A DNA stretch of 64,000 nucleotides from Arthrobacter globiformis (lineage in GTDB: Bacteria; Actinomycetota; Actinomycetes; Actinomycetales; Micrococcaceae), in the NCBI RefSeq assembly GCF_003261175.1, contig NZ_QLNP01000062.1, positions 186,001 to 250,000 of the forward strand, written 5' to 3'. Each line of letters begins with the position of its first letter. The stretch's first letter is position 1. The translations under genes were made by a program, and so were the position numbers. Positions 2,418 through 35,495 of this stretch are shown here, one piece after another. Under the pieces are notes generated by a model. That model was given only the letters and a program-made list of their open reading frames with translations. It was not told the origin of the DNA and ran no database searches.

Positions 2418-2425
2418 CGCGGAAA

Positions 2426-3703: not shown

Positions 3704-3732
3704 GCGTTCCATGATGCAGGTCACATCTGTTT

Positions 3733-3744
3733 ATTGTCAACAAT
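3733..3744. promoter_or_regulatory. operator O1, ATTGTCAACAAT, between divergent aminotransferase and 2-hydroxyacid dehydrogenase
   Basis: A perfect inverted repeat ATTGT-CA-ACAAT. It overlaps a rightward -35 TTGTCA (3734-3739) spaced 18 nt from TACGGT (3758-3763), and a leftward -35 TTGACA (3740-3735). Binding here would block both promoters. It matches the GT-NN-AC core typical of GntR/FCD operators. It is one of seven copies in the cluster. Confidence 0.75.
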
Positions 3745-3769
3745 CCTGCGATCGGGGTACGGTTGTGGC

Positions 3770-4753
3770 GTGAGTAACACTGAGAACAAGCAGCGCGTGG
3801 TGATTCTCGCCGCCGACGGCCTGCCCCGCCCCTACAACCTGGACGCCATCGAAGCCCTGGCTGACGTCACCGTGACGGATGCCGCCAGCCTGCCCGGCGC
3901 GGCTTCCGGCGCGGACATCCTGTTCCTCTGGGATTTTTTCTCCGCCGCACTGAAGGATGCCTGGCCGCACGCGGACTCACTGAAGTGGGTGCATGTCGCG
4001 GCCGCCGGCGTGGACGCGATGATGTTCGACGAACTGCGGCGATCCGACGTCGTGGTCACCAACGCCCACGGCACGTTCGACCGGCCCATCGCCGAGTTCG
4101 CCCTGGCCTCGATCCTCGCCCACGACAAGCAGCTGCACCTGAGCAAGAAACTGCAGCAGGACTCCGTGTGGCAGCACCGCGAGGTCACCCGCACCGAAGG
4201 GTCCCGGGCCCTCGTGGTGGGCACCGGCGGCATCGGCCGCGCCACGGCCCGGCTGCTCCGGGCGGTGGGGTTGGAGGTGCGCGGCGTCGGCCGGACACCG
4301 CGGGAGGACGATCGGGACTTCGGCACGGTCCTGTCCAGCGCCGAACTGGCCGAACACGCCGGATGGGCGGACCACGTGGTGCTGATTGCGCCGCTCACGG
4401 ACCAGACCCGGAACATGGTGGATGCCCGCGTCCTGTCAGCCATGAAGCCCTCGGCCCACCTCGTCAACGTGGGCCGCGGCGCCCTGGTGGATGAGCCGGC
4501 GCTGATCCAGGCGCTCCGCGACGGGCGGATCGCCGCCGCGTCTTTGGACGTGTTCAGCGAGGAGCCCGTCCCGGCGTCCCACCCCTTCTGGGGCATGGAG
4601 AACGTCCACATGTCCGCGCACATGTGCGGCGACGTCGTGGGCTGGCGAGACGCCCTGGCCCGGCAGTTCCAGGACAACCTGGAGCGCTGGACCGCGGGCG
4701 AAAAGCTGTCCAACGTGGTGGACAAGGAACGCGGCTACGTCAGCCGCGCCTGA
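3770..4753 (+). CDS. D-isomer-specific 2-hydroxyacid dehydrogenase (NAD-binding)
   Basis: NAD(P)-dependent 2-hydroxyacid dehydrogenase/2-oxoacid reductase of 327 residues. The Rossmann dinucleotide motif GTGGIGRATARLL lies near residue 148. The catalytic Arg is in LVNVGRGALVDE, the Glu in DVFSEEP and the His in MSAHMCG, so the Arg-Glu-His triad is complete. The start is GTG 3770 (VSNTENKQRV). The candidate -10 TACGGT sits six bases upstream with no room for a Shine-Dalgarno site, so the message is probably leaderless. The frame stays open far upstream, but that stretch only shadows the opposite-strand aminotransferase. It is divergent from the aminotransferase and shares operator O1. The reaction in the pathway is unknown; it may interconvert a 2-oxoacid and a 2-hydroxyacid with the FAD enzyme next door. 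Confidence 0.9.
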   Translation: MSNTENKQRVVILAADGLPRPYNLDAIEALADVTVTDAASLPGAASGADILFLWDFFSAALKDAWPHADSLKWVHVAAAGVDAMMFDELRRSDVVVTNAHGTFDRPIAEFALASILAHDKQLHLSKKLQQDSVWQHREVTRTEGSRALVVGTGGIGRATARLLRAVGLEVRGVGRTPREDDRDFGTVLSSAELAEHAGWADHVVLIAPLTDQTRNMVDARVLSAMKPSAHLVNVGRGALVDEPALIQALRDGRIAAASLDVFSEEPVPASHPFWGMENVHMSAHMCGDVVGWRDALARQFQDNLERWTAGEKLSNVVDKERGYVSRA

Positions 4754-4770
4754 CCTGGGCAGCAGCACCG

Positions 4771-4794
4771 CGCCGCCCCGGAGGCGGGGCGGCG
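4771..4794 (+). terminator. GC-rich hairpin after 2-hydroxyacid dehydrogenase
   Basis: CGCCGCCCC pairs with GGGGCGGCG around a short loop 18 bases after the stop codon. There is no clear T run, so it is a weak terminator candidate. Confidence 0.4.
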
Positions 4795-4879
4795 GCCCGC
4801 CCGTCCGCGGCTCGGCGGATTTGCCGCGCGGCCCGTTTCCGGCGTGGCTCATTTGTGTGATCCGTGCCACATGCACTAA

Positions 4880-4891
4880 ATTGTAGACAAT
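4880..4891. promoter_or_regulatory. operator O2, ATTGTAGACAAT, upstream of M24 hydrolase operon
   Basis: Perfect inverted repeat ATTGT-AG-ACAAT, 27 bp before the TTG start of the M24 hydrolase. It is followed by CTACTAATC, an extension also found beside O6. It is the only regulatory-looking element between 4754 and 4917 and would control the three-gene operon 4918-8585. Confidence 0.75.
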
Positions 4892-4917
4892 CTACTAATC
4901 ATTATCGGAGGTGTTTT

Positions 4918-6099
4918 TTGCTGTTCAGCCAAGAGGAGTACGACGCCCGGCTCGCCGGTGTCCGAGTGCGCATGGCAAAGCAGGGGCTTTCCGCCCTGCT
5001 GGTGACCGACCCGGCCAATATCTACTACCTGACCGGGTACAACGCGTGGTCCTTTTACACCCCGCAGCTGGTCTTCGTCCCAGCTGACGGCCCAATGCTG
5101 CTGTTCACCCGCGCCATGGACGCCGGCGGGGCCTTCCGCACCAGCTGGCTCCCGCAGGACTGCATCGTGGGCTATCCCGAGCAGTATGTCCACCGCCCGC
5201 ACGTGCACCCCTTCGACTGGGTGGCCTTCGCCCTCCGCGAGCGCTACCTCATCGCCCCGGCGGCCAAGGGCTGCGTGGGCCTGGAGATGGACTCGCACTT
5301 TTTCTCCCCCAAGGCATACCGTTCCCTGGTTAACGCCATTCCGGAATGGACGCTGGTGGACAGCTTCGAGCTGGTCAACTGGGTCCGCTCCATCAAGTCC
5401 CCCGCCGAGATCCAGCTGATGCGGGGCGCGGCGCAGGTCTGCATGGCGGCCATGGAGGCCGCCGTCGAAACCATCGACGTCGGCGTCCGCCAGTGTGATG
5501 CCGCGGCGGCCATCAGCCAGGCGCAGATCAAGGGCGCCAACGGCATCGGCGGCGACTACCCGGCCATCGTGCCCATGCTCCCCACCGGCGAGGCCGCGGA
5601 CACCCCGCACTTGACCTGGAGCGAGGACCGCTTCGAGGCCGGCCAGGCCGTGGTGATCGAACTCGCCGGCGCGCACCAGCGGTACCATGTCCCGCTGGCC
5701 CGCACACTGACCCTGGGCAAGAAGCCGGACCGCCTCACCAAACTGGCCGACGCCGTCGCCGACGGCCTTAACGCCGTCCTGACCGAGGTGCAGCCGGGTG
5801 TTCCCGTTCGCGAACTGGCCCGGGCGTGGAACTGGACGCTGGCCAAGTACGGCCTGGAAAAGCCGTCCCGCATCGGCTACTCGATCGGCGTCGGCTACCC
5901 GCCCGACTGGGGCGAGCGCACCATCTCCATCCGCTCCGAGGAGGAATCCGTCCTGGCGGAAAACATGACCTTCCACGTAATCGGGGGCATGTGGATGGAC
6001 AACTACGGCTACGAACTCTCCGAATCCATCCGCGTCACGGCCGACGGCGTGGAAACCTTCACCAGCTACCCCCGAGAACTTCTGCAGAAAGGCGGCTAG
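4918..6099 (+). CDS. M24-family hydrolase resembling ectoine hydrolase (DoeA/EutD-like)
   Basis: Pita-bread-fold (creatinase/prolidase, M24) hydrolase, 393 residues. The start is TTG 4918, preceded by a strong GGAGGTG site. Residues 1-130 form the creatinase N-domain (LLVTDPANIYYLTGYNAWSF), followed by the M24 catalytic fold (GGDYPAIVPMLPTGEAADTPHLTW, IELAGAHQRYHVPLART). These segments closely resemble, from memory, the ectoine hydrolases DoeA/EutD, which open the ectoine ring to N-acetyl-diaminobutyrate. The stop lies 3 nt before the next GTG start, so translation is coupled to the aminotransferase and then to the M20 deacylase. That order (ring opening, transamination, deacylation) suits catabolism of a cyclic or N-acylated amino acid. 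Other amidohydrolytic substrates such as Xaa-Pro or creatine analogues cannot be excluded. Confidence 0.85.
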   Translation: MLFSQEEYDARLAGVRVRMAKQGLSALLVTDPANIYYLTGYNAWSFYTPQLVFVPADGPMLLFTRAMDAGGAFRTSWLPQDCIVGYPEQYVHRPHVHPFDWVAFALRERYLIAPAAKGCVGLEMDSHFFSPKAYRSLVNAIPEWTLVDSFELVNWVRSIKSPAEIQLMRGAAQVCMAAMEAAVETIDVGVRQCDAAAAISQAQIKGANGIGGDYPAIVPMLPTGEAADTPHLTWSEDRFEAGQAVVIELAGAHQRYHVPLARTLTLGKKPDRLTKLADAVADGLNAVLTEVQPGVPVRELARAWNWTLAKYGLEKPSRIGYSIGVGYPPDWGERTISIRSEEESVLAENMTFHVIGGMWMDNYGYELSESIRVTADGVETFTSYPRELLQKGG

Positions 6100-6102
6100 T
6101 CC

Positions 6103-7356
6103 GTGACTGTTGACCACTTTGCCACCCGCTCGCGCGCCACGCTGCCGTTGGCCGACCGCACCGCCGACCTCGTCGGTTCCGTGATCGACTCCAGCACCTC
6201 ACTGCTGGCCTCGCAGACCCATGACGTCGTCCGCTTTGCCATGGGCTCCCCCGCGGACGAGGCCGTGCCGCTGGAGGAATTCCGCGAGATTGCCGGCCAG
6301 GTGCTGGATCACGGCTCCATGACCTACGGCGCCACCGAGGGCGAGCCCGTACTGCTCGAGGCCCTCGTGGAGTACCTCGCCGGGACCTCGGATCCCACGG
6401 ACGTGGAACGCATCACCATCACGTCCGGCGGCATGCAGGGCCTGGATCTGGCCTGCAAGCTCTTCGTCAATCACGGCGACCTGGTGATCGTGGAAAGCCC
6501 CACCTACACCAACGGCAGCGCCACCGCCCTGAGCTACGGCGCCGAACTGCTCGAGGCCCCGACCGACGAAAACGGCCTCATCGTGGAGGCCCTGCCCGAG
6601 CTGGTTGCTGCCGCCGGCCGCACGCCCAAGGCGATCTACACCATCCCCAACTTCCAGAACCCCGCCGGCGTCACAATGTCCCTGCCGCGCCGGCACCAGC
6701 TGCTGGAGCTCGCGCACGAGTGGAACTCGGTCATCATCGACGACGATCCCTACGGGCTGCTCCGCTTCCAGGGCGAGGACCTGCCCTCCCTGCAGGCCCT
6801 GAGCCCGGCCGATCCCCTGCTGTTCTCGGTCCGGACCTTCTCCAAGATCCTGGCCCCGGGCCTGCGCGTGGGCTGGGTGGACACGGATCCGGCGCTGCGC
6901 CAGCTGGTCATCAACGCCAAGCAGGCGATGGACACGTGCACCAACGTTCCCGCGCAGCACATCGTGGCCGAGTTCGTCCGCCGCGGCGGCCTGGACAACC
7001 ACCTCGCCGGGCTGCGCACCGAGTACAAGCGCCGCAAGGACGCCATGCAGGAACACCTTCGCCGCCACCTCGGCGGCCGTGTCACCACCACCGACCCCGA
7101 GGGCGGCTTCTTCCTCTGGCTCACGCTTCAGGGCGAGGACGCCCGGATTTCCACGCGGAAGCTGTTTGAGACGGCCCTCGCCGAAGGCGTTGCCTTCATC
7201 CCCGGCCCCGCCTTGTCCGCCAGCGGAAAGTTCGACGACGCCCTGCGGCTCTGCTTTGCATCCACCACTCCCGAACGGGCCGAGGAAGGCGTCATCCGGC
7301 TGCGCCGGGCGATGGACCGGGAGCTGGCGGTGCTGAAGGGCGGGGAATCCGCTTGA
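6103..7356 (+). CDS. class I/II PLP-dependent aminotransferase (2-aminoadipate transaminase-like)
   Basis: Fold-type I aminotransferase, 417 residues, of the stand-alone group related to the C-terminal domain of MocR regulators. It lacks the winged-helix domain; the N-terminus is short and acidic. Motifs seen are PNFQNPAGVTMS, the Asp/Tyr pair in IIDDDPYGLLRF and the Schiff-base lysine in VRTFSKILAPGLRVGW near residue 246. The start is GTG 6103, three bases after the M24 stop. Its own stop overlaps the TTG start of the M20 gene (TTGA). It probably transfers the amino group of the product released by its operon partners. The amino acid cannot be named from sequence. Confidence 0.88.
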   Translation: MTVDHFATRSRATLPLADRTADLVGSVIDSSTSLLASQTHDVVRFAMGSPADEAVPLEEFREIAGQVLDHGSMTYGATEGEPVLLEALVEYLAGTSDPTDVERITITSGGMQGLDLACKLFVNHGDLVIVESPTYTNGSATALSYGAELLEAPTDENGLIVEALPELVAAAGRTPKAIYTIPNFQNPAGVTMSLPRRHQLLELAHEWNSVIIDDDPYGLLRFQGEDLPSLQALSPADPLLFSVRTFSKILAPGLRVGWVDTDPALRQLVINAKQAMDTCTNVPAQHIVAEFVRRGGLDNHLAGLRTEYKRRKDAMQEHLRRHLGGRVTTTDPEGGFFLWLTLQGEDARISTRKLFETALAEGVAFIPGPALSASGKFDDALRLCFASTTPERAEEGVIRLRRAMDRELAVLKGGESA

Positions 7357-8585
7357 GCACGCCGCTTGATTCGGAGGGAAAGTCAGTGGAGGACAGTGTC
7401 CTCGGCCTGATCAGCGAGGCCGAACTGGTCTCGCTGACCACCGCCCTTGTGGCCGCCGGGGGCGAAAACCCCGGCGGCACCGAGGAGGCCACCGTGGAGG
7501 TCCTAAGAAACTTCTGCCTGGGTGCCGGCCTGGAGGTGTCCACGGACACCGTGGCCCCGGGGCGGCCGAACTTCACGGCCGTCCTGCCGGGCGGCACCTC
7601 CCCCGGCATCCTGTTCCTGGGGCACTCCGACGTCGTTCCTGCCGGGACCGGCTGGGAGCGGCCGCCGTTTGAGCCCTATGTCCGGGACGGCAGGCTCTTT
7701 GGCCGCGGCTCCACGGACATGAAGGGCGGCCTCGCCGCCGTGCTCATCGCACTGAAGGCACTCCGCGACGCCGGCGCCGAGCTGCCTGGCAACGCGGCGC
7801 TCGCCTGCACGGTGGACGAGGAGGACCTGGGCATCGGCATCCGCGCCTACACCGCCGCCGCCCTGGCGGACCCGACCTTCTCCTACTCCGCCTGCGTGGT
7901 GGCCGAACCCACCGACCTCGAGACGGTGATCGGCTGCCGCGGGGACAGCTACATCGAGCTAAAGGTCACCGGCAAGTCGGCCCACTCGGGCCGGCCGGCG
8001 GACGGCCGCAACGCCATCGGCGCCGCGGCGAAGATCCTGGATCTGGTCCGCGAGGACCACACCCGGCTGCAGGCGGACCTCGATCCGCTGCTGGGCGCCG
8101 GCACCTGGAACATCGGCCTCATCAGCGGCGGCACCGGAACGTCCATGGTGGCGGCCGAGTGCACCGTGTCCCTTGACCGGCGACTGATGCCCGACGACGA
8201 CGCCCACCTGATTCTGGACAAGCTCCGCGCCCGGATCAGCGAGGCCGGAATCGACTCCGACGGCATCACCGTGGAGGCCACCGTGACCATGGAGATGCCG
8301 GGGTTCCGTACGCCAGAGTCCCATCCGCTGGTGGCCAACGCCGTGGCCGCCCTGGCCGACGCCGGCGTCACCAGCCCCATCAGCGGCTGGACCGCAGCCT
8401 GCGACGGCGGCTTCGTGGCCCGCGACCTCGACATGCCGGCCATCGTCATGGGGCCGGGCGGGCTCAACGACCAGGCCCACCAGGTCAATGAGTCTGTCAG
8501 CATCGCCGAGATCGTGGCGGCCGCCAAGGCGTATGCCCTCATGTGCCTGCGCCATCCGGCCGGCCTGAGCCCCGGTCCCGCTTAG
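7353..8585 (+). CDS. M20-family deacylase (ArgE/DapE-like)
   Basis: Zinc-dependent amidohydrolase/peptidase of family M20, 410 residues, expected to remove an acyl group from an N-acyl amino acid. Metal and catalytic positions visible: FLGHSDVVPAG (His, Asp), GSTDMKGG (bridging Asp), DEEDLG (catalytic Glu and ligand Glu), VAEPTD and a late His in DQAHQVNES. A dimerisation domain sits in the middle (residues ~190-300). The start is TTG 7353, overlapping the previous stop by four bases. In known ectoine pathways the N-acetyl-diaminobutyrate deacetylase DoeB/EutE belongs to the aspartoacylase/succinylglutamate desuccinylase family, so an M20 enzyme here would be a non-homologous replacement if the substrate is ectoine-like. 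Confidence 0.88.
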   Translation: MSTPLDSEGKSVEDSVLGLISEAELVSLTTALVAAGGENPGGTEEATVEVLRNFCLGAGLEVSTDTVAPGRPNFTAVLPGGTSPGILFLGHSDVVPAGTGWERPPFEPYVRDGRLFGRGSTDMKGGLAAVLIALKALRDAGAELPGNAALACTVDEEDLGIGIRAYTAAALADPTFSYSACVVAEPTDLETVIGCRGDSYIELKVTGKSAHSGRPADGRNAIGAAAKILDLVREDHTRLQADLDPLLGAGTWNIGLISGGTGTSMVAAECTVSLDRRLMPDDDAHLILDKLRARISEAGIDSDGITVEATVTMEMPGFRTPESHPLVANAVAALADAGVTSPISGWTAACDGGFVARDLDMPAIVMGPGGLNDQAHQVNESVSIAEIVAAAKAYALMCLRHPAGLSPGPA

Positions 8586-8603
8586 ACGGTCCCATTAGCA
8601 AGA

Positions 8604-8640
8604 AAGCGGCCAGCTGCACATAACGTGCAGCCGGCCGCTT
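8604..8640. terminator. bidirectional hairpin between M20 gene and GntR regulator
   Basis: AAGCGGCCAGCTGCAC and its near-perfect reverse complement flank a short loop, and the right arm runs into CTTCTTTG. It lies between convergent genes and can serve both strands. Confidence 0.75.
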
Positions 8641-8655
8641 CTTTGGTGTGCGTTT

Positions 8656-9342
8656 CTAGGCCGTCGCGGCTTCCGCCCCGCCATTGTCGGTGAGCCGCTC
8701 CAGGGCGTCCTCCATGTGGCTGATCAGGAGCCGTCCGACGCGTTCCGTGTCGCCGTCCGCCAGCGCCTCGGCGATGGCGTGATGTTCCGCCACCCGGGTG
8801 TGCGGGTCCGGGTACTTCTTCTCCAGCGCCGTCAGGCACATGCGGGTCTCGGTGAGCAACGTGTTGTGCATGCGGGTGAGCCGGGTGCTGTCGGCAGCCG
8901 CCACCAGTGCGGCGTGGTACTCCATGTCCGCCTCGGACATCGCGTCCAGGTCGCCCTTGTCCGCGGCCCTCTTCATGGCCTTCACCACCTGCAGCAGCCG
9001 CACCGCAACTTCCTTGCCGCTCTTCTGCAGGATGAGTTCGGAGGCGGCGCGTTCGACGGCGGTGCGGGCCACATACATGTCCCGCACCTCCTCGTCGGTC
9101 ATGGTGATGACGAACAGCCCGCGGTTCCGGATGCTGATGAGCAGGCCTTCCTGCGTCAGGCGCTGCATGGCCTCGCGGAGCGGTCCGCGGCTCACGCCCA
9201 GTTCCTTTGCCAGTTCGGCCTCGCCCAGCTGCGCTCCGGGCGCAATTTGGCCGAGCCCGATCGCAGTCCGCAATTTGCCGGCAATGATTGATGGCGTGGA
9301 TTCGCGCACCACGGGCTCAAATCTTTGCATCGGGAACCACAT
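8656..9342 (-). CDS. GntR-family regulator with FCD domain, likely local regulator of the cluster
   Basis: DNA-binding repressor or activator, up to 228 residues. An N-terminal winged helix spans about residues 12-78, with the recognition region ELAKELGVSRGPLREAMQRLTQEGLL. An all-helical FCD ligand domain follows (residues ~85-215), with the conserved Asp and His residues in ADMEYHAALVAAAD, EHHAIAEAL and ISHMEDALE. Two in-frame starts (9342 and 9330) both lack a clear Shine-Dalgarno site. Operator O3 (9420-9431) lies upstream, just after a possible -10 TAGGAT, which suggests autoregulation. It is the only regulator inside the cluster carrying the seven ATTGT-NN-ACAAT sites, so I infer it binds them. 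The ligand is probably a pathway intermediate. Confidence 0.9.
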   Translation of the reverse strand: MWFPMQRFEPVVRESTPSIIAGKLRTAIGLGQIAPGAQLGEAELAKELGVSRGPLREAMQRLTQEGLLISIRNRGLFVITMTDEEVRDMYVARTAVERAASELILQKSGKEVAVRLLQVVKAMKRAADKGDLDAMSEADMEYHAALVAAADSTRLTRMHNTLLTETRMCLTALEKKYPDPHTRVAEHHAIAEALADGDTERVGRLLISHMEDALERLTDNGGAEAATA

Positions 9343-9419
9343 TTCGTTCGGGGGTCCGGCTGCTGCCTTCGCGCGCCAGACCCGTACTGGAAGTCCGTCC
9401 CGGAGGGCGGGCCAAAATT

Positions 9420-9431
9420 CTTGTCTACAAT
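9420..9431. promoter_or_regulatory. operator O3, CTTGTCTACAAT, upstream of gntR
   Basis: One mismatch from the cluster consensus, in the outermost base. It overlaps the end of a second palindrome ATCCTACAGGAT (9430-9441). On the minus strand TAGGAT, a -10-like hexamer, lies immediately before it, so binding would block the start of transcription of the regulator gene. Confidence 0.65.
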
Positions 9432-9477
9432 CCTACAGGATTACGCGCAGGTAGTTGAATGGTCAGCAAAGAAGTAA

Positions 9478-9508
9478 CGCCGGGCCGCCCTTTGCGGGCG
9501 GCCCGGCG
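9478..9508 (-). terminator. terminator hairpin after DUF3830 gene
   Basis: CGCCGGGCCGCCC pairs with GGGCGGCCCGGCG around a TTTGC loop, nine bases beyond the stop of the DUF3830 gene at 9517. Confidence 0.7.
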
Positions 9509-9516
9509 TGCGGAGT

Positions 9517-10029
9517 TTACGGCGTGGTGTCCACGGCCCGTGAATATGTCAGGGTCTCATCCCTGGCCCCGCCCATCCAGATGTCCTGGCAGGCCGAGGC
9601 CATTTCGTCCAGCCCTTCCACGATCGTGGCAAAGACATTCCCGGGCACCCAGCCCGTATCTCCGTTGAGCAGCAGGTTGTTGCGGCCGTAAAACACAGCC
9701 AGGTCCACGATGGTCTGCACCGCGTCCGTCTCCGAATCGGCCTCGTACCCATGGGAGGGAGTCTTGAGGTCATTCGAGGTGAAGGTGAAGTAGCAAACGT
9801 CGCCGGGAATCGGTGTGACCGTGGTGTTCTCGGCGCCGGGCTCGGCCACAGCGAAGGCCGGCACCAGGTTGTAGATCTCGTTGCGGGCATACTTGCCGTG
9901 GAAAACCTGACCGCTGAGCGGCAGCGCGTCCCAGACGGCGTTGGCCGTGCGGGGTGCCGCGTCATCGTGCAGGAGTGCCTTGCAGGTCACGCCGCGCTTT
10001 TCAAGGGTGATGTTGATGTATCGGGCCAT
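9517..10029 (-). CDS. DUF3830 family protein (cyclophilin-like fold)
   Basis: A 170-residue cytosolic protein matching what I know of DUF3830: it starts MARYINITLEKRGVTCKALL and carries GQVFHGKYARNEIYNLVPAF and NDLKTPSHGYEADSETDAV. ATG 10029 is preceded by GGAGGAAGAAC, so the longer open frame upstream is not used. It lies 58 nt downstream of the amidase and is probably co-transcribed with it from the promoter at operator O4. Members of this family are commonly found beside amidases, M20 enzymes and Asp/Glu-racemase-like proteins in catabolic clusters. The biochemical role is unknown; a small-molecule binding or isomerising role is only a guess. Confidence 0.82.
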   Translation of the reverse strand: MARYINITLEKRGVTCKALLHDDAAPRTANAVWDALPLSGQVFHGKYARNEIYNLVPAFAVAEPGAENTTVTPIPGDVCYFTFTSNDLKTPSHGYEADSETDAVQTIVDLAVFYGRNNLLLNGDTGWVPGNVFATIVEGLDEMASACQDIWMGGARDETLTYSRAVDTTP

Positions 10030-10087
10030 GTTCTTCCTCCGGTTCGGGGGGGATCGGTTCGGGGTGGGGATTAGTTCGGTGCGGGAA

Positions 10088-11518
10088 TCAGTTCCGCGTG
10101 GGGGTGGACAGCTCCGCGGTGGTGGCGGGCCGGCGGCGGCACCAGTCAGTGGCACCCTGGTAGGCGGCGGCCACGGACAGCACGGCCGCGTCGCCGTGCC
10201 GCGGCCCGATGATCTGAAGCCCGACCGGAAGAGCGTCGCTGGTGAATCCGCACGGCACGCTGATGGCGGGCTGCTGGGTGAGGTTAAAGGGGTAGGTGTA
10301 GGGCGTCCAGGACGTCCAGTCCTGCGAGTCCGAGCCGGCCGGGACATCCCGGCCGGCCTCGAACGCGGGGATGGGCAGGGTGGGCGTCACCAGCAGGTCA
10401 TACTGCTCGTGCAGTAGCCCCATCTCCCGGCCCAGCTTCATGCGGACCGCCGTGGCGTCGAGGAAGTCGCTGGCACTGAAGCCGGCATGCCGTTCCAGCG
10501 CGGCGGCAAGGTGCGGGTCGATCCGTTCGATGGCGCGCGGGCCGTAGCCCTCAACCACCTTGGCTGCGCCACTGAACCACAGCACGTGGTAGGCGTCTAC
10601 CGGGTCCGACCAGCCGAGGTCGATTTCCTCAACATCTGCGCCGAGCTCGCGCAGCAACCCCACGGCGCTGCGGACGGCCGCTTCAACTTCGGGATGGTTG
10701 ATGCCGTAGCCAAGGTCCGGGCTGAAGGCGATACTCCGGCCGCGCAGCCCGTCGCCCAGGGATTCCAGGAAGGAGCGCGTGGGGGCGGGTCCGGCGGACC
10801 AGTCGCGGGCGTCGGGCTGCGACAGAATGTCCATCATCAGCGCGGCGTCCTCCACGCTGCGTGTGATGGGACCGGCGTGGGCCAGCGTACCGAAGGGACT
10901 AGCCGGGTAGAGCGGCACAGTTCCGTACGTGGGCTTGAAGCCGACGGTGCCGGTAAAGCCGGCCGGGATCCGAATGGAACCTCCGCCGTCGGTACCCACG
11001 GACCATGGACCCATGCCTTGGCTCACCGCCGCGGCACTGCCGCCGCTGGAGCCACCGGACGTGCGGGTCGGGTCCCACGGATTCCGCGTGACCCCGCAGC
11101 GCGGGCTGTCGGTCACGCCCTTCCAGCCAAATTCGGGGCTGGTGACCTTGCCGAGCAGGACGGCGCCGTTTTCGCGCAGCCGGGCGATGGCGGGCGCGTC
11201 CTCGTCCCAGTCGCCACCGGGCGAGGTGAGCATTGAGCCGCGGAGCGTGGGCCAGCCCCTGGTCAGCAGCAGGTCCTTGATTGAGGTCGGAACGCCGTCG
11301 GCCAGGCCCCGGGGTTCGTTCCTGCGCCAGCGCGCTTCCGACTCGCTTGCTTCCTGCAGCGCAGCCTCAGGCTCGACGAGGCAGAACGCATTGATGCCGG
11401 CGTCGTGGCGGTCAATCGAGTCCAGCGCTGCGCGCGTCGCCTCCACGGGCGAGGCTTCGCCGGATCGGTAGGCGGCCAGCAGTTCGGTGGCTGTGGCCCA
11501 TTCCAGTGCATCAATCAC
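10088..11518 (-). CDS. amidase (amidase-signature family)
   Basis: Amidase-signature hydrolase, 476 residues, cutting a carboxamide to acid plus ammonia or amine. The Ser-cisSer-Lys triad is visible: Lys in PTSIKDLLLT, the glycine/serine stretch TSGGSSGGSAAAV, and the nucleophile region GTDGGGSIRIPAGFTG. The start is taken as GTG 11518, because GGGAGA lies seven bases upstream; the in-frame TTG at 11524 would overlap that site. A promoter TTGACA-18-TAGCCT runs leftward from operator O4 (11588-11599). It is divergent from the first EutA-like gene and probably co-transcribed with DUF3830. Whether it acts on the same substrate as the M24 and M20 enzymes is not visible. Confidence 0.9.
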   Translation of the reverse strand: MIDALEWATATELLAAYRSGEASPVEATRAALDSIDRHDAGINAFCLVEPEAALQEASESEARWRRNEPRGLADGVPTSIKDLLLTRGWPTLRGSMLTSPGGDWDEDAPAIARLRENGAVLLGKVTSPEFGWKGVTDSPRCGVTRNPWDPTRTSGGSSGGSAAAVSQGMGPWSVGTDGGGSIRIPAGFTGTVGFKPTYGTVPLYPASPFGTLAHAGPITRSVEDAALMMDILSQPDARDWSAGPAPTRSFLESLGDGLRGRSIAFSPDLGYGINHPEVEAAVRSAVGLLRELGADVEEIDLGWSDPVDAYHVLWFSGAAKVVEGYGPRAIERIDPHLAAALERHAGFSASDFLDATAVRMKLGREMGLLHEQYDLLVTPTLPIPAFEAGRDVPAGSDSQDWTSWTPYTYPFNLTQQPAISVPCGFTSDALPVGLQIIGPRHGDAAVLSVAAAYQGATDWCRRRPATTAELSTPTRN

Positions 11519-11587
11519 GCGCAAATCTCCCTTGTTGTTCCTGTGGTGCAGATAACACTGCGGTCAGGCTATGTGCGATGCGTCACT

Positions 11588-11599
11588 ATTGTCAACAAT
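11588..11599. promoter_or_regulatory. operator O4, ATTGTCAACAAT, amidase promoter
   Basis: Identical to O1. Leftward it contains the -35 TTGACA, spaced 18 nt from TAGCCT. O4 and O5 centres are 49 bp apart in the same divergent region. Confidence 0.75.
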
Positions 11600-11636
11600 C
11601 CTACGTCCCTATCTTTTACCGGCCGCTTTTCGTATG

Positions 11637-11648
11637 ATTGTCCACAAT
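11637..11648. promoter_or_regulatory. operator O5, ATTGTCCACAAT, promoter of first EutA-like gene
   Basis: Inverted repeat overlapping a good rightward -10 TATGAT (11633-11638), so binding would occlude the -10 and start site. It lies 38 bp before the ATG of the EutA-like gene. Confidence 0.72.
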
Positions 11649-11685
11649 CCACGGGAATGGCCCGCGGCATTTCAAAGGAGAATTA

Positions 11686-12426
11686 ATGGGAGTCACCGTT
11701 GGCATGCTCTACCCGGGCTTCGGCGCCGAAGACGATTACCCCTACATGGCGGAGCTCCTGGGCGGCGGCGTCAGCCTGCCGCTGGTCCACACCTCCGTGG
11801 GCGTCGACGCTCACGAGGTGCAGGCCCTGCTGGACCTAGGCAAGAGCGAGCGGCTGCTCGAAGGCGCGCAGTCTCTGCGCGCAGCCAAGCCCGACGCCGT
11901 GATGTGGGCCTGTACGTCCGGCAGCTTTGTGTTCGGCTGGGACGGTGCGCACCAGCAGGCCCTTGAGGTCCAGGAGGCGCTGGAGGTTCCCGCGTCGTCC
12001 ACATCGCTTGCGTTCGTGGACGCGGCAAGGGCCCTGGGCCTGGAGCGCGTGGCCGTGGCGGCCACCTATCCCGAGGATGTGTCCCGGCATTTCGTGGCTC
12101 TGCTGGGCCACTGCGGAATTGAGGTGACCCAGCTCGTGAGCCATGACATTCCCACGGCGGCACTCGCCGGCCAGCTTGACCGTGACGGCGTGCTGGATCT
12201 CGCGCGCAGCAACGACAGCCCCGACGCCCAGGCCATCCTGATCCCGGACACCGCCCTGCACAGCGCCCGCTGGATCACCGATCTGGAGGCAGCGCTGGGC
12301 AAACCTGTCCTCACGGCAAACCAGGTCACCGTGTGGCAGGGCTTGCGCCTGGCCGGCGCCCTGCAGCCCTGCGACGCACTCGGGCACCTGTTCCAGGCCA
12401 CTGCCGGCCTTCCCGTCGGCGCCTGA
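11686..12426 (+). CDS. EutA / maleate isomerase / Asp-Glu racemase superfamily protein, second cysteine missing
   Basis: A 246-residue protein of the superfamily that includes maleate cis-trans isomerase, arylmalonate decarboxylase and ectoine-utilisation protein EutA. ATG 11686 follows AAAGGAG, so the longer frame from 11638 is rejected. The first catalytic-cysteine motif is present (WACTSGSFVFGW, near residue 70-80). At the position of the second cysteine it reads LIPDTALHSA, where its paralogue at 12556-13308 has FISCTNLPTYD. Maleate isomerases and racemases need both cysteines, so this copy is unlikely to work by the usual two-cysteine mechanism. The C-terminal GKPVLTANQVTVWQGLRL is conserved. 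Its operator is O5. Confidence 0.83.
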   Translation: MGVTVGMLYPGFGAEDDYPYMAELLGGGVSLPLVHTSVGVDAHEVQALLDLGKSERLLEGAQSLRAAKPDAVMWACTSGSFVFGWDGAHQQALEVQEALEVPASSTSLAFVDAARALGLERVAVAATYPEDVSRHFVALLGHCGIEVTQLVSHDIPTAALAGQLDRDGVLDLARSNDSPDAQAILIPDTALHSARWITDLEAALGKPVLTANQVTVWQGLRLAGALQPCDALGHLFQATAGLPVGA

Positions 12427-12467
12427 CGCCGCACAAGCAGGCCCCGGAGAGCCGGGCGAAAGCCACC

Positions 12468-12516
12468 AAAGGCGTCCCAGGCGGAGCAGCAAATTCCTCC
12501 GCCCGGGACGCCTTTT
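12468..12516. terminator. bidirectional terminator between convergent EutA-like genes
   Basis: AAAGGCGTCCCAGGCGGAG pairs almost fully with CTCCGCCCGGGACGCCTTT across a short loop. It has A and T runs on its two outer sides, as expected for a shared terminator. Confidence 0.8.
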
Positions 12517-12555
12517 GCACACCCGCGGGCCACCCTGCGTCGCCCTGCAGCGGTC

Positions 12556-13308
12556 CTAATCCCCGCCGTCGGACCCCGCCAGCAGCCGCTGGCCCGGACC
12601 CACGGCAGCCTTTCCAAGCCGCGCAAGGGCCGCCCACGCAGTGACCTGGTTGGCGGACAGCACCGGCTTGCCCAGTTCCCGCTCCAACGGGGCAATGATG
12701 TCGTACGTGGGCAGGTTGGTGCAGCTGATAAAGACGACGTCGGCCTCCGGCACATCCGCAGCCCGGATCAGTTCGCTGGTGGTCCGGTACGGCACTTCCC
12801 AGATCCCGCCCCCCAGGCCCAACCCCGCCTGCGACACGACGGCATGCCCCGCCTCTTCGAGGAAGTCACCCAGCCGGAGCGTCAGCTCCGCCACATACGG
12901 GGTGATGACCACCACCCGGGACACCCCGAGATAATTCAGGGCCTCCAGCAACGCCTCCGACGTGCTGACACCCTGCGCCGAGCTGGCGGCCTCCATCACC
13001 TTGGAGATACGGCGGGCGCCAGCCACGCCGTTGACGAAGCTGCCTGAGGTGCACGCGTACGCCATCACCTTGGGGCCAACGGCGCTCAGGTTTCGGGCCG
13101 CCGCCTGCACGTTACGGTCGTCACTGACGTCCTCGGCGAGCTCCAGGCTGACAGGCTCATCCAGGAACGGCGTCCGGGTGAAATAGAGGGACACATCCCC
13201 AGGCATCCAGCGCCAAAGCTCACGGTCCAGTGCCATGTCGAAGGGACACACCACACCGATCCCCGCCTGACGCGCCGGCCCGGCCTCATCCCGCATAAAA
13301 CTTTCCAT
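12556..13308 (-). CDS. EutA / maleate cis-trans isomerase-like protein, both cysteines present
   Basis: A 250-residue member of the Asp/Glu/hydantoin racemase-maleate isomerase superfamily. Both catalytic-cysteine motifs are intact: YACTSGSFVNG near residue 85 and FISCTNLPTYD near residue 195, followed by GKPVLSANQVTAWAAL. ATG 13308 is preceded by AAGGGAAGAG. EutA is encoded with ehuABCD and eutBCDE in rhizobial ectoine operons, which fits the neighbours here, but maleate or another dicarboxylate isomerisation is equally compatible. It is divergent from the RidA gene, with operator O6 between them, and convergent with its one-cysteine paralogue. Confidence 0.85.
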   Translation of the reverse strand: MESFMRDEAGPARQAGIGVVCPFDMALDRELWRWMPGDVSLYFTRTPFLDEPVSLELAEDVSDDRNVQAAARNLSAVGPKVMAYACTSGSFVNGVAGARRISKVMEAASSAQGVSTSEALLEALNYLGVSRVVVITPYVAELTLRLGDFLEEAGHAVVSQAGLGLGGGIWEVPYRTTSELIRAADVPEADVVFISCTNLPTYDIIAPLERELGKPVLSANQVTAWAALARLGKAAVGPGQRLLAGSDGGD

Positions 13309-13329
13309 TCTCTTCCCTTAGATTAGTAG

Positions 13330-13341
13330 ATTGTTGACAAT
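13330..13341. promoter_or_regulatory. operator O6, ATTGTTGACAAT, between EutA-like gene and ridA
   Basis: Inverted repeat containing a rightward -35 TTGACA (13334-13339), spaced 17 nt from TAGTGT (13357-13362). It would control the RidA gene on one side and the EutA-like gene on the other. Confidence 0.75.
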
Positions 13342-13397
13342 AATGAGCGTCTTGCCTAGTGTCCGAAGTGACCACCGCCGTCGAAGGAGTAGCGCAA

Positions 13398-13877
13398 ATG
13401 CAGCCCCAGAACCACCGCCATGACAACCACGAAAGCCCCCTTGCCGCCGTCGAACGCCAGCTTCCGGAACCGCCGGTTCCGGTGGCGAACTATGTGCCGG
13501 TGCGGCAGGTGGGGAACCTGGTATTCACCTCGGGACAGACGCCCCACCGAAACGGCGTGCTGGCCGTCCGCGGCAAGCTTGGTCGCGAGGTCAGCATCGA
13601 GCAGGGCCAGCAGGCCAGCGCCGCGGCCGTGCTGAACTGCCTGTCCGCGCTGCGCCAGCACCTCGGGTCCCTGGACCGGATTCTCTCCGTGGTCAGCCTC
13701 ACCGGCTATGTGGCCTCCGCCGACGGGTTCGTCGACCAGCCGGCCGTGATCAACGGCGCCTCGCTGGTCCTGGAAAAGGCCTTCGGCGACAAGGGGCGCC
13801 ATGCCCGGGCCGCCGTCGGTGTTGCCGAGCTGCCCGGGCACGCGCCCGTTGAGATATCGCTGATTGTGGAAGTCTGA
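13398..13877 (+). CDS. RidA family protein (YjgF/YER057c/UK114)
   Basis: A 159-residue RidA-like protein. Classical RidA hydrolyses reactive enamine/imine intermediates released by PLP enzymes, which fits a cluster holding two PLP aminotransferases. Visible features are NYVPVRQVGNLVFTSGQTP, QASAAAVLNCLSAL and GRHARAAVGVAELPGHAPVEISLI. The catalytic-arginine region matches (R in HARAAVGV), though this is the YjgH/Rid-like subgroup rather than the short archetype. The start is ATG 13398 after GAAGGAG; the in-frame GTG at 13359 lies inside the -10 hexamer and would not be transcribed. Confidence 0.85.
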   Translation: MQPQNHRHDNHESPLAAVERQLPEPPVPVANYVPVRQVGNLVFTSGQTPHRNGVLAVRGKLGREVSIEQGQQASAAAVLNCLSALRQHLGSLDRILSVVSLTGYVASADGFVDQPAVINGASLVLEKAFGDKGRHARAAVGVAELPGHAPVEISLIVEV

Positions 13878-13884
13878 ACCCCTG

Positions 13885-14700
13885 CTAGTGCTGCAGGACG
13901 GCCCGGAGGAAAGTCCGGGTCCGCTCCTGCTGCGGGTCCTTAAAGATTTGCGACGGCGGTCCGCTCTCCACGGCTCCGCCGTTGTCGAACATCACCACCC
14001 GGTCCGAAATCTCCTCGGCGAACCGCATCTCGTGGGTGACCATGAGCATGGTCATGTCCGTGGTGTGGGCCAGGTTCCGGATCACGTTCAGCACTTCGCC
14101 GATCAGCTCCGGGTCCAGGGCCGACGTCGGCTCGTCGAACAGCAGAACCTTGGGCCGCATGGCCAGCGCCCGGGCGATGGCCACCCGCTGCTGCTGGCCG
14201 CCGGACATCTGCGGCGGCGTGTGGTTCATGTGCTTGCCCAGCCCCACGAGGTTAAGCAGCTCCGACGCCCGCTCCCGAGCCTCTGCCTTGCCCATTCCCA
14301 GCACATGGATGGGGGCCTCGATGACGTTCTCCATGGCCGTCATGTGCGGGAACAGGTTGAATTGCTGGAACACCATGCCGATTTTCCGGCGGGTTTCGCG
14401 CAGCTGCTTCGTTTCCCTGGCCTTCTGGCCAGGTGCGACGTCCCACAGCATGTCCCCGTCCACAGTCACCAGTCCCTCGCTGGGGGTTTCCAGCGTCATG
14501 AGGATGCGCAGGATGGTGGTCTTGCCGGACCCGGAGGGACCGATGATCGAAACCTTCTCCCCCGGGGCGACCTCGAAGTTGAGCGACTTCAGGACCTGGT
14601 TGGACCCCCAGTTCTTGCTGACGTTCTGGAACCTGACGATCGGGCCGGGAGCGGACCCGGCGTCGGCGGACAGGGGTTGGGGTTCAGTGCTGGGGCGCAT
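13885..14700 (-). CDS. polar amino-acid ABC importer, ATP-binding protein (EhuA-like)
   Basis: ABC ATPase of the polar amino-acid uptake family, 271 residues. Walker A GPSGSGKTT lies near residue 54, the Q-loop is VFQQFNLFPHM, the signature is MSGGQQQRVAIARA, Walker B is VLLFDEPTSALDPE and the H-loop is LMVTHEM. It is the last gene of a four-gene uptake operon (binding protein, two permeases, ATPase) and overlaps the upstream permease by 17 nt. It is convergent with ridA, seven bases away. The operon is driven from the promoter at operator O7. Confidence 0.93.
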   Translation of the reverse strand: MRPSTEPQPLSADAGSAPGPIVRFQNVSKNWGSNQVLKSLNFEVAPGEKVSIIGPSGSGKTTILRILMTLETPSEGLVTVDGDMLWDVAPGQKARETKQLRETRRKIGMVFQQFNLFPHMTAMENVIEAPIHVLGMGKAEARERASELLNLVGLGKHMNHTPPQMSGGQQQRVAIARALAMRPKVLLFDEPTSALDPELIGEVLNVIRNLAHTTDMTMLMVTHEMRFAEEISDRVVMFDNGGAVESGPPSQIFKDPQQERTRTFLRAVLQH

Positions 14701-15340
14701 AGCGCCGCTCCAATCTGTTAACGAGCCGGGAGGCCGGGTAGCTGATGGCCAGGAAAAGCAGGGCGGCCAGGGTGAGCGGTTCCAGGTAGCGGAAGTTCGA
14801 GCTTCCGATCGCCTGGGCCGTGGCCATCAGTTCCACCACGGTGATGGCCGAGAGCACGGCGGAGTCCTTGAACATCTGGATCAGGTAGTTGCCGAGCATG
14901 GGCACCACGGTGCGCACGGCCTGCGGCAGGATGATCCGCCCCCAGGTGCGCGCACCGGGGAGGCTGAGCGCCGTTGCTGCCTCCCACTGCCCCTTTGGAA
15001 CGCCCTGGATTCCACTGCGGTAGACCTCCGCCATATACGCGCTGTAGTTGACTCCGATCACCACCACGCCCGTGGCAAGGGCGTCGAAGCTGATGCCGTA
15101 GGCGGGGAGCACAAAGAATGCGCAGTAGGCCTGGACCAGCAGCGGCGTCCCGCGGACGAACACCACGAAGAAAGACACCACGGGAGACAGCACCGGAATG
15201 GCGAGCCTCCTGAGCACCGCGAAAACCAGGCCCAGGACAGCCGCGAGCAGAGTGCCCAGCAGCGTGATCTGCACGGTGACCCACAGCCCCTCAAGCAGCA
15301 GCGGGAGAACCGAGATGGCAAAGTCGTTATCCCAGATCAT
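14684..15340 (-). CDS. polar amino-acid ABC importer permease (EhuD-like)
   Basis: Integral membrane permease of the HisM family, 218 residues, with about five hydrophobic segments. The EAA-type loop reads GQWEAATALSLPGARTWGRIILPQAVRTVVP near residues 115-150 and contacts the ATPase. FVRGTPLLVQAY marks the amino-acid permease subfamily. The start ATG overlaps the upstream permease stop (ATGA), so the two permeases are translationally coupled. Confidence 0.92.
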   Translation of the reverse strand: MIWDNDFAISVLPLLLEGLWVTVQITLLGTLLAAVLGLVFAVLRRLAIPVLSPVVSFFVVFVRGTPLLVQAYCAFFVLPAYGISFDALATGVVVIGVNYSAYMAEVYRSGIQGVPKGQWEAATALSLPGARTWGRIILPQAVRTVVPMLGNYLIQMFKDSAVLSAITVVELMATAQAIGSSNFRYLEPLTLAALLFLAISYPASRLVNRLERRYAPQH

Positions 15341-16035
15341 GCGGCACCCACCTTCATAAGACGGCTTTCCTTGCGCTGGGCCGCGAGCGCCTTCCGGTCC
15401 AGGGCGAACCGGCGCTCGAGCCAGCCGGTCAGCAGGGTCAGCAGGCAGGACAGGACGAAGTACATCACCAGGATGGTGAGGAAGATCGCCGTCGTCTGTC
15501 CCGTGGTGCTGCGGATCATCTGGGCGCGGAACGTCAGGTCCGCCACGGTGACCAGGGAGACCAGCGAGGTGTTCTTCAGCAGGTCCACCATGACGTTGCC
15601 GAACGGCGGCAGCATCGCGGGAATGGACTGCGGGATGATGATCCGGCGCAGCCGCAGCGCCGGCTCCATGCCCAGGGCGATGCAGGCTTCAGTCTGGCCT
15701 TTGGCCCGGCTGGCGATGGCGCCGCGGACAACCTCGGCCGCGTACGCGCCCTCATTCAGGCCGAGGGCCAGGACCGCCGCGGTGAGCGGGTGGAGCTGGA
15801 TTCCGAAGAACGGCAGGGCGAAGAACAGCCAAAACATCTGCACCAGCAGCGAGGTGCCGCGAAACACCTCAATGAAGACGCCGGCCGGCCAGCGCAGGAA
15901 ACGGTGGCCGGACAGGCGGGCCAGCCCCGCGGCGAACGCGACGACCAGGCACAGCGCCCCGCTGAGCACGGTCACCAGGATGGTGGTCAGCAGCCCCTGC
16001 CACAGCAGCGGGGCGTATTCGATTACGGCGGACAT
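15337..16035 (-). CDS. polar amino-acid ABC importer permease (EhuC-like)
   Basis: Second permease of the importer, 232 residues. The start is ATG 16035, preceded by AAAGGAG; a longer open frame upstream only overlaps the binding-protein gene in another frame. It has the FRGTSLLVQMFW motif and an EAA loop GQTEACIALGMEPALRLRRIIIPQSIPAMLP. The C-terminal tail is long and basic. It lies 31 nt after the binding-protein stop and overlaps the next permease by four bases. Confidence 0.92.
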   Translation of the reverse strand: MSAVIEYAPLLWQGLLTTILVTVLSGALCLVVAFAAGLARLSGHRFLRWPAGVFIEVFRGTSLLVQMFWLFFALPFFGIQLHPLTAAVLALGLNEGAYAAEVVRGAIASRAKGQTEACIALGMEPALRLRRIIIPQSIPAMLPPFGNVMVDLLKNTSLVSLVTVADLTFRAQMIRSTTGQTTAIFLTILVMYFVLSCLLTLLTGWLERRFALDRKALAAQRKESRLMKVGAA

Positions 16036-16066
16036 CCGCGACTCCTTTTCCGGGCTGTCATCCGGA

Positions 16067-16960
16067 TCACCCCGCGGTCTTGCATAGCTCCTCGGCGGTG
16101 ACGCCTTCCACCACGGTCGCGTCGAAGCCCCACTTGGTGAGGATCGTGGCGAACTCCGGGGTTTTCTTGAAGGCGGCAAGCTCCTTGTTGTAGGCCTCGT
16201 GGAACGCGGCGTCGGCGTTGCGGAACGCGGCGCCGGAGCCGGTGCGCGGGGCGTCGTCCACCGGCTTGCTGATGTCGAAGCTGGCATCGTCCTTCGCCAG
16301 GGCCTGCAGCGACAGGGTGGGCAGCATGAAGGCGTCGGCCCGGTTCGCCTTGAGCGCCTCAAGGCCACTGCGGCCGTCGTTGATCTTCACCTGCTGGGAC
16401 GCCGGGACATTGGCGGACTGGAGCACGCCCTCCTCGAAGCCGCCAGGCAGCACGGCGATCCGCAGGGACTTGTCTGCCAGGACGTTGGCCACGGTGGTGA
16501 TGCCCTTCGGGTTGCCCTTGGGGGTTGCGAAGGACTCCGTGGAAACGATGACCGGCTCCGAATAGAGGACCTGCCCGCAGCGGGACTGCTTCATGAACAG
16601 GCCGGCCGCGATGACGTCCCAGCGGTTGGCGTTGAGGCCGGGAATCATTGATTCATAGGGCGTGACGATTCCCTGCACGTCGTCGATACCCAGGCGTTTA
16701 CAGACGGCGCGCAGCACGTCAGGCTCGCAGCCGGTGACGTTGCCGTCGGCACTGACCTGAGTGTACGGCGGTTCATTGGCGATGCCGACGCGGAGGAATC
16801 CCTGGGACTTCGCTGTCTCCAGGAGGTTGCTCGCGGCGCCCGAGGCGGGTCCGCCGACGGCCACGCTGGAACAGCCCGTGGCCCACCCTGCCACTGTGGC
16901 CCCGAGGACCGCGACACCCGCGCCGCGCAGGACGTTCCGCCGTGAAATGTTGCCGGTCAT
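16067..16960 (-). CDS. extracellular solute-binding lipoprotein of the importer (EhuB-like)
   Basis: Family 3 periplasmic-binding-type protein, 297 residues, tethered outside the membrane. The N-terminus has a twin-arginine-like run SRRNVLRG and a lipobox ending ATGC near residue 30. The mature part begins GFLRVGIANEPPYTQV and continues through SMIPGLNANRWDVIAAGLFMKQSRC and ATPKGNPKG, ending VEGVTAEELCKTAG. These segments resemble the ectoine/hydroxyectoine binding protein EhuB more than glutamine- or histidine-binding proteins. The start is ATG 16960, with GGAG five bases upstream. A leftward promoter TTGACA-17-TAGGTT begins inside operator O7, about 90 bp upstream. Ligand specificity needs binding data. 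Confidence 0.9.
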   Translation of the reverse strand: MTGNISRRNVLRGAGVAVLGATVAGWATGCSSVAVGGPASGAASNLLETAKSQGFLRVGIANEPPYTQVSADGNVTGCEPDVLRAVCKRLGIDDVQGIVTPYESMIPGLNANRWDVIAAGLFMKQSRCGQVLYSEPVIVSTESFATPKGNPKGITTVANVLADKSLRIAVLPGGFEEGVLQSANVPASQQVKINDGRSGLEALKANRADAFMLPTLSLQALAKDDASFDISKPVDDAPRTGSGAAFRNADAAFHEAYNKELAAFKKTPEFATILTKWGFDATVVEGVTAEELCKTAG

Positions 16961-17051
16961 ATGTACTCCATTCACCCGGGCTCGCCGGGGTTAATGAGAT
17001 GTGTCAGGTCGATGTGACCCGTGTTACACAAACCTAGGATTGGGCAGTACG

Positions 17052-17063
17052 ATTGTCAACAAT
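17052..17063. promoter_or_regulatory. operator O7, ATTGTCAACAAT, ABC importer promoter
   Basis: Identical to O1 and O4. Leftward it carries -35 TTGACA, spaced exactly 17 nt from -10 TAGGTT, giving the best promoter in the cluster. It also lies upstream of the small rightward gene at 17158. Confidence 0.78.
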
Positions 17064-17556: not shown

Positions 17557-17862
17557 ATGATCGTGGTTCGATTCCTGGTCAGGTGCCAGCCCGGCAAAGC
17601 CGACGAAGTCATGGCTGTGCTTCGGGACGTTGTCCGGCCCAGCCGGGCCCTGGACGGCGTGGTCAGCTTCGACATCGGCCGCGACGTGACCGATCCCGAC
17701 GTCTTCATAGCCACGGAAGTGTTCGAGGACCGGGCTGCCCTCGACCGGCAGGAGTCCCTTCCTGAAGTGGCCAGGGCGCTCGAGATTTTCGAAGGCTCAT
17801 TAGCAGCCGAGCCCGAGGAGACGATCTTTCATGTCTACTCGACGGAGCCCGTGGAAGGCTGA
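17557..17862 (+). CDS. antibiotic biosynthesis monooxygenase (ABM) domain protein
   Basis: A 101-residue single-domain ABM/YgiN-like protein: [49 protein letters not shown]. These ferredoxin-fold dimers act as cofactor-free quinol monooxygenases or as sensors. The start ATG is preceded by GGGAG. Its 3' end overlaps the convergent large membrane-protein gene by 28 nt. Confidence 0.82.
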
Positions 17863-35356: not shown

Positions 35357-35483
35357 CTGTTGCTCCTTTGCAGGCGATGAAGAAGGGGTGGAGAGATATG
35401 CCTGTGAATTGTGGCCGGTTCGGCGGGCAGGAAAGCTGTCCTTTGGCCGCTTGCTAACTACCATACAAGCACTACCATTCTAG

Positions 35484-35495
35484 TTTGTCAACGAT
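35484..35495. promoter_or_regulatory. candidate GntR operator, TTTGTCAACGAT
   Basis: Matches the FCD-type T-N-GT-NN-AC-N-A pattern (TTGTCAACGA). On the minus strand it contains TTGACA, spaced 17 nt from TTGTAT, a plausible promoter for the sugar-acid operon. On the plus strand it lies 4-15 bases before TACACT, the likely -10 of the regulator gene. Confidence 0.6.

Follow-up and report, generated by a model that had tools for sequence, protein, structure and literature searches.

Several FCD-domain transcriptional regulators of the GntR family (FadR subfamily), among them MdcY, PrpR, HypR, HpxS and UxuR-type proteins, belong to a class with a GT-N2-AC operator core (PMC4494728), and the MocR-type regulators EnuR and EutR control ectoine catabolism genes through predicted operators that overlap the promoter (PMC8739950, PMC5320631). 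Ectoine use was limited to Proteobacteria in a 2018 review (PMC5924519), and its occurrence outside that group was called tentative in a 2026 paper (PMC13188858). We analyzed a stretch of 64,000 nucleotides of Arthrobacter globiformis (contig NZ_QLNP01000062.1, positions 186,001 to 250,000; hereafter the window), in which a sequence-only reading had noticed seven copies of the palindrome ATTGT-NN-ACAAT in a 17-kb catabolic cluster that includes a GntR/FCD regulator gene at 8656-9342. It is highly probable that this palindrome is the operator of the 8656-9342 protein, which would bind it as a dimer and repress the whole cluster.

Comparison with the described systems revealed likeness to both groups and identity with neither. 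As in the MdcY/PrpR group, the regulator has an FCD domain, the arms follow TKGT/ACMA, and two bases separate GT from AC, bearing out the remark that a GT-NN-AC core fits GntR/FCD regulators (PMC4494728). Unlike that group, no malonate decarboxylase, propionate or similar targets appeared in the match lists obtained with the cluster proteins, and the regulator here appears to govern a cluster of Amd, DUF3830 and aminotransferase genes. The MdcY operator itself reportedly has the same arms. The locus shares with EnuR/EutR the control of EhuABCD-type transport and a EutD-like enzyme, and the predicted EnuR operator has the same half-sites, ATTGT...ACAAT; however, for EnuR, which belongs to the MocR group, these arms stand six bases apart (PMC8739950), in contrast to an FCD protein and two bases here. 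Putative Gram-positive ectoine clusters likewise come from Actinomycetota and combine a EutD homolog with MFS or Ehu transport, but those were found with EutD and EutB as queries and are labelled with eutB, eutC and eutA in a figure legend (PMC13188858), whereas no EutB or EutC was among the matches listed here. No description of this regulon was found among the matches listed in the open-access literature. The regulator is a new example of the GT-N2-AC FCD kind, with an unusually readable regulon.

Re-scanning the window located the seven sites exactly where they had been reported, at 3733, 4880, 9420, 11588, 11637, 13330 and 17052; six are perfect and the one at 9420 has one outer mismatch (CTTGTCTACAAT).
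3733..3744: operator ATTGTCAACAAT, between the divergent genes of an aminotransferase (minus strand) and a D-2-hydroxyacid dehydrogenase (plus strand)
4880..4891: operator ATTGTAGACAAT, ahead of the M24-AT1-M20 genes
9420..9431: operator CTTGTCTACAAT, in front of gntR, with one mismatch
11588..11599: operator ATTGTCAACAAT, the one nearer the amidase in the divergent amidase/AmdA region
11637..11648: operator ATTGTCCACAAT, the one nearer AmdA, immediately 3' of a TATGAT -10-like box
13330..13341: operator ATTGTTGACAAT, between divergent AmdB (minus strand) and RidA (plus strand), holding the likely RidA -35 box
17052..17063: operator preceding the ehuBCDA-type genes (minus strand) and holding their likely -35 box

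Three sites had been called identical, which is true of 3733, 11588 and 17052 as read; the number rises to four when strand is ignored, since 13330 is their reverse complement. A scan of the A. globiformis genome (GCF_003261175.1; 4,880,416 bases in 88 contigs) revealed six exact copies of the 12-mer, all six inside the cluster, against one match to a backwards control pattern. Many unrelated matches across the genome, which had been named as speaking against a compact regulon, were not found among these exact copies. Allowing up to one mismatch gave 31 places, against 13 with the control pattern; of the 24 one-mismatch places outside the cluster, 5 lie between and 19 within open reading frames (ORFs) predicted by our own script, and the latter were set aside as targets because of that position. 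The regulon in this genome is mainly the cluster. Sites with two mismatches carry little meaning, because at this tolerance the whole window gives 10 matches with 5.1 expected. The one weaker relative claimed for the window, at 35484, is weak indeed, but 8211 and 22557 also match with two mismatches. This site (TTTGTCAACGAT, in the region 33938-36242) lies 15 bp before a second GntR/FCD gene (35511-36242), divergent from an MFS transporter gene; as it precedes another GntR/FCD gene, it was set aside as an eighth member of the regulon, and it may be the own site of that regulator in a separate small regulon.

To follow the palindrome across actinobacteria, two sets of loci were used. Of 149 sampled genomes of the family, 26 have an ortholog of the regulator (E ≤ 1e-40), and the first set consists of the 27 stretches around all orthologs outside the own genome. 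The second comprises the best 80 of at least 567 relatives in named genomes (L062-L141), at least four of which duplicate a stretch of the first set; these loci span Arthrobacter, Cryobacterium, Kocuria, Nesterenkonia, Ornithinimicrobium, Mycolicibacterium, Gordonia, Williamsia, Nocardia, Actinomadura, Nonomuraea, Nocardiopsis, Streptomyces, Kribbella, Glycomyces and others. ATTGT-N2-ACAAT was present in 24 of the 27 stretches (all except L045, L048 and L056) and in 73 of the 80 loci, with 166 sites in the latter; a relaxed pattern gave at least one site in 76 of the 80. In a census of all palindromes with 5-base half-sites and spacers of 0-8, ATTGT-N2 came first when half-sites containing no more than one G or C were ranked, and the runner-up, an AT-rich palindrome, reached 11 loci. 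The 19 permuted half-sites of the same letters together yielded a single site in the 80 loci, and ATTGT at spacers 0-1 and 3-8 occurred in no more than one locus each, in keeping with the two-base spacing of the MdcY-type GT-N2-AC group. A second palindrome, AGATT-N6-AATCT, was seen in 11 of the 80 and 5 of the 27 loci.

The cluster genes run in the order FADox, AT3, DHacid, M24, AT1, M20, GntR/FCD, DUF3830, amidase, AmdA, AmdB, RidA, EhuA, EhuD, EhuC, EhuB.
3..2420, minus strand: FADox, FAD/Fe-S D-2-hydroxyacid dehydrogenase-like, YdiJ-like; truncated by the window edge and likely cotranscribed with 2426-3724
2426..3724, minus strand: AT3, class III aminotransferase
3770..4753, plus strand: DHacid, D-2-hydroxyacid dehydrogenase
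4918..6099, plus strand: M24 hydrolase, kin of the ectoine hydrolase DoeA/EutD, below the family cut-off
6103..7356, plus strand: AT1, class I aminotransferase, MocR-like domain without a helix-turn-helix (HTH)
7353..8585, plus strand: M20, ArgE/DapE family deacylase
8656..9342, minus strand: GntR family regulator, FCD subfamily, putative repressor
9517..10029, minus strand: DUF3830 protein, matching structure 3kop
10088..11524, minus strand: amidase (PF01425)
11686..12426, plus strand: AmdA, Asp/Glu racemase superfamily, EutA/arylmalonate decarboxylase-like, Cys and Asp
12556..13308, minus strand: AmdB, same Asp/Glu racemase superfamily as AmdA, Cys and Cys
13398..13877, plus strand: RidA/YjgF-type protein, start uncertain, maybe GTG 13368
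13885..14700, minus strand: EhuA-type ABC ATPase, above the equivalog cut-off
14684..15340, minus strand: EhuD-type permease, above the equivalog cut-off
15337..16092, minus strand: EhuC-type permease, above the equivalog cut-off
16067..16960, minus strand: EhuB-type solute-binding protein, above the equivalog cut-off

Strand and spacing suggest nine transcription units, and every one has a site in front, in agreement with the claim that the motif stands at every promoter region; the seven sites serve nine units, those at 3733 and 13330 each lying between divergent units and being able to serve both. Analysis of site placement in the 80 loci counted a site as near a start if it lay at most 250 bp before or 40 bp after the point where a regulon gene was estimated to begin, leaving out gene copies that start less than 200 bases from the locus end and matches below 38% identity. 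Of the 166 sites, 155 were near the start of a cluster gene, 94 of them near two starts. A perfect site stood ahead of DHacid in 51 of 54 copies, AT3 in 34 of 37, EhuB in 6 of 6 and RidA in 5 of 6, followed by AmdA (30 of 59), AmdB (27 of 54), DUF3830 (23 of 48), ProP-like (10 of 27) and ALDH genes (15 of 46); none of the 32 copies of EhuA, EhuC and EhuD had one. Many of the gene copies without a site of their own may be inside operons.

Comparison of site numbers with the presence of the regulator revealed a mean of 3.92 perfect sites (2 to 8) in the 26 genomes with an ortholog, against 0.89 (0 to 5) in the 123 genomes without (Mann-Whitney p = 4.6e-14, kinship ignored). Sites also followed genes that had moved away: in 14 distant-site stretches chosen among the matches listed, the distant site preceded regulon genes absent from the main cluster in nine; G009, for example, has a second block at a distance of about 84 kb (L142), and G004 an AT3 gene standing alone (L148). 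In L153, a site lies within an ORF. Both the compact regulon and the 8656-9342 protein as its presumed binder were thus supported, as sites track orthologs and often follow moved regulon genes. The stretch L156 (4856-10013, from G001, a genome without an ortholog) holds three perfect sites around a different GntR/FCD gene (FCD 92 bits, GntR 56.2 bits) with PrpF, PIG-L, RraA-like and glyoxalase-superfamily neighbours, and is probably a second regulon with the same operator. That the sites are bound mainly by some other FCD-class regulator, instead of the GntR protein of the cluster, would be in keeping with L156, with the 0.89 sites per genome that lack the ortholog and with the second GntR/FCD gene of the window; we regard this as very unlikely, because site number follows ortholog presence, sites follow the gene neighbours of the ortholog across actinobacteria, and the own genome has no perfect site outside the cluster.

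The 8656-9342 protein has an N-terminal winged HTH of the GntR type (PF00392, 59.7 bits, cut-off 27) and a C-terminal FCD domain (PF07729, 85 bits, cut-off 24.3), which places it in the FadR/FCD part of the GntR family, and the palindrome predicted as its operator has the NyGTNxACNy form with A/T-rich arms that is usual there (PMC4494728). D135, H139, H183 and H205, which we take to be the FCD metal ligands, are invariant in 20 orthologs, as expected of an FCD Asp/His metal site. The identity of the protein with the phosphonate regulator PhnR was rejected (TIGR03338, 120.8 bits against a cut-off of 271.5). HTH positions 28, 40 and 59, numbered by ungapped matching to the table of PMC4494728, correspond to Ala38, Pro50 and Asn69; across the 20 orthologs, position 28 is Ala, Met or Thr and never Arg, position 40 is Pro in all 20, and position 59 is Asn in 19. 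In published correlations, Arg at position 28 favours G/C at the K of TKGT and Pro at position 40 avoids G/C there (PMC4494728). The helix residues would agree better with T than with G in the TKGT box, and the arm here reads TTGT.

To relate the operator to promoters, 208 distinct perfect sites were collected from the window and the 107 loci, with identical 132-base contexts removed. The centre is CA/TG in 140 of them, so that the TG strand reads ATTG-TTGACA-AT, a perfect -35 box. A TAnnnT box follows in 62 of the 140 TG strands at a spacer of 17 (43) or 18 (19), whereas any other spacer between 8 and 29 had 0 to 4. The corresponding counts were 10 and 9 on the CA strand, which offers TTGTCA as a possible -35 box and reached at most 7 at other spacings; the 35 sites with a CG centre had 0 and 1 among their 70 strands and thus no comparable peak. 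The NN of the motif is thus often not free but completes a promoter, and a -35 box written into the operator in two thirds of the 208 sites is new. The frequency of TTGACA might suggest that the 12-mer is a mere conserved -35 region and no operator at all; this is hardly credible, since the remaining third, with CG, AG, AA, GC or CC centres, breaks TTGACA yet keeps the ATTGT and ACAAT arms perfect, and permuted AT-rich palindromes are almost absent. In the window, the operator centre completes TTGACA at 3733, 11588, 13330 and 17052. Promoters read by eye were TTGACA-17-TAGTGT for RidA, TTGACA-17-TAGGTT for EhuB, TTGACA-18-TAGCCT for the amidase and TTGTCA-18-TACGGT for DHacid, with a weaker CATCAT at 18 for AT3 and TATGAT directly before the operator for AmdA. 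The RidA -10 box (13357-13370, by eye) puts its likely transcription start near GTG 13368; the RidA message may be leaderless, and so may that of DHacid (GTG 3770).

These positions point to a mechanism in which a dimer of the 8656-9342 protein would sit on each site and repress the unit behind it. Because the -35 box lies inside the operator at four sites, a bound dimer should exclude sigma factor or RNA polymerase; at 11637, the operator starts right behind a -10-like box. It is for this overlap that we call the protein a repressor. The inducer would be a pathway intermediate, probably a carboxylate at the FCD metal site, that releases the protein from DNA and jointly induces uptake, hydrolases, aminotransferases, dehydrogenases and the racemase-like pair, and the site of gntR suggests autoregulation. 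Some FCD proteins act both ways, and a protein that binds these sites but activates would suit 4880, where no clear -35/-10 overlap is seen. Such activation appears unlikely, given the -35 box inside the operator at 3733, 11588, 13330 and 17052 and the -10-like box behind 62 of 140 TG-strand sites.

Several observations weigh against repression of the cluster by this protein through this palindrome. Seven of the 80 loci have no perfect site and four lack even a relaxed one; 11 of the 166 sites are near no regulon gene, and 9 are inside the body of a matched gene. A perfect site directly precedes gntR in just 12 of the 80 loci, and sites are infrequent before M24 (10 of 28), amidase (9 of 53) and FADox (3 of 22) and absent before AT1 (0 of 27) and M20 (0 of 26). 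The comparison of site numbers takes no account of kinship, and genomes without an ortholog hold up to five sites. In five of the 14 distant stretches, the site does not precede regulon genes; two of these sites are next to other ABC transporter genes, and the three remaining ones, which all belong to G123, are next to none of them. The motif by itself cannot identify the protein, because L156 shows the same palindrome around another FCD-type regulator. No clear promoter could be read at 4880, and the lean of Asn at HTH position 59 toward A/T is not significant (PMC4494728).

The predicted co-regulation turns 16 loosely annotated genes into one set with relatives in many genera and makes its pathway testable; any substrate that frees the repressor from the 12-mer would name that pathway. 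The most constant part of the clusters consists of GntR, AmdA, AmdB, DHacid, amidase, DUF3830 and AT3. The two cysteines of AmdB are kept in 53 of 53 sequences; in AmdA, the Cys is kept in 49 of 50 and Asp replaces the second Cys in 49 of 50. This residue pattern suggests that the recurring pair is a racemase or isomerase beside an altered partner. The set includes DUF3830, a domain without an assigned function; the protein at 9517-10029 matches the solved structure 3kop (E 2e-104), listed as uncharacterized. The domain was found in 2 of 14 control genomes, and no paper naming it was found in the open-access literature; the regulon context is the first functional hint that we have met for it.

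An ectoine-like solute is our best guess for the nutrient in this genome, and a tentative one. The cluster may break down ectoine or 5-hydroxyectoine through a Gram-positive version of the established pathway, though the balance lies somewhat against it. The transporter argues for it: TIGR03005, TIGR02995, TIGR03004 and TIGR03003 are all above the equivalog cut-off, and EhuB scores 217.8 bits against the ectoine-binding protein 2q88. In the alignment, EhuB retains E, Y, F and R of what we take to be the 2q88 pocket, with F24 changed to Y. The M24 protein matches DoeA (6twk) with 349.7 bits over residues 3-390 of 393. Among relatives (matches of at least 38% identity), two further genes recur in the 107 loci, namely an SSADH-like dehydrogenase (47 loci), recalling the Ssd step of the ectoine route, and a ProP-like symporter (41 loci), both names resting on one representative each that falls below its equivalog cut-off. 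ProP-type proteins transport ectoine.

The enzymes and the regulator argue against that route. The M24 protein stays below the EutD cut-off (TIGR02993, 414.9 against 613 bits) and AmdA and AmdB miss that of EutA (TIGR02990, 95.1 and 99.5 against 318 bits); no EutB, EutC or EutE was among the matches listed (E ≤ 0.001, best 25 for some proteins), and an M20 deacylase is present instead. An EnuR-type regulator, that is, a MocR protein joining a GntR HTH to an aminotransferase, is absent, since 6103-7356 has aminotransferase domains only and the regulator is of the FCD type. Filing the locus as a known ectoine (ehu/eut) cluster was rejected on these EutD, EutA, EutB/C/E and EnuR results. Of 20 genomes picked because their regulator has no M24 gene nearby, 18 lack an M24 relative altogether (E ≤ 1e-40), and most of these M24-less loci retain the operator along with several core genes (L094 has AT3 only); ectoine ring opening is for this reason not the core chemistry. 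A more far-reaching and doubtful possibility is a new FCD-repressed catabolic route common to many Actinomycetota, in which the Amd pair, DHacid, amidase, DUF3830 and AT3 would form a core of novel chemistry, an add-on module (M24, AT1 and M20, in some cases with Ehu; in Micrococcaceae and some others) would feed in an ectoine-like compound, and the operator would have evolved to contain the -35 box. If so, promoter and operator would share letters and move together in gene shuffling. Should the nutrient be ectoine-like, the cluster would bear on ectoine consumption by Gram-positive bacteria.

Just past the last operator, a small ORF (17557-17862) encodes a protein of the antibiotic biosynthesis monooxygenase (ABM) family. 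Far from the cluster, positions 60001-62000 of the window show a strong local skew (GC skew -0.259, AT skew 0.293).

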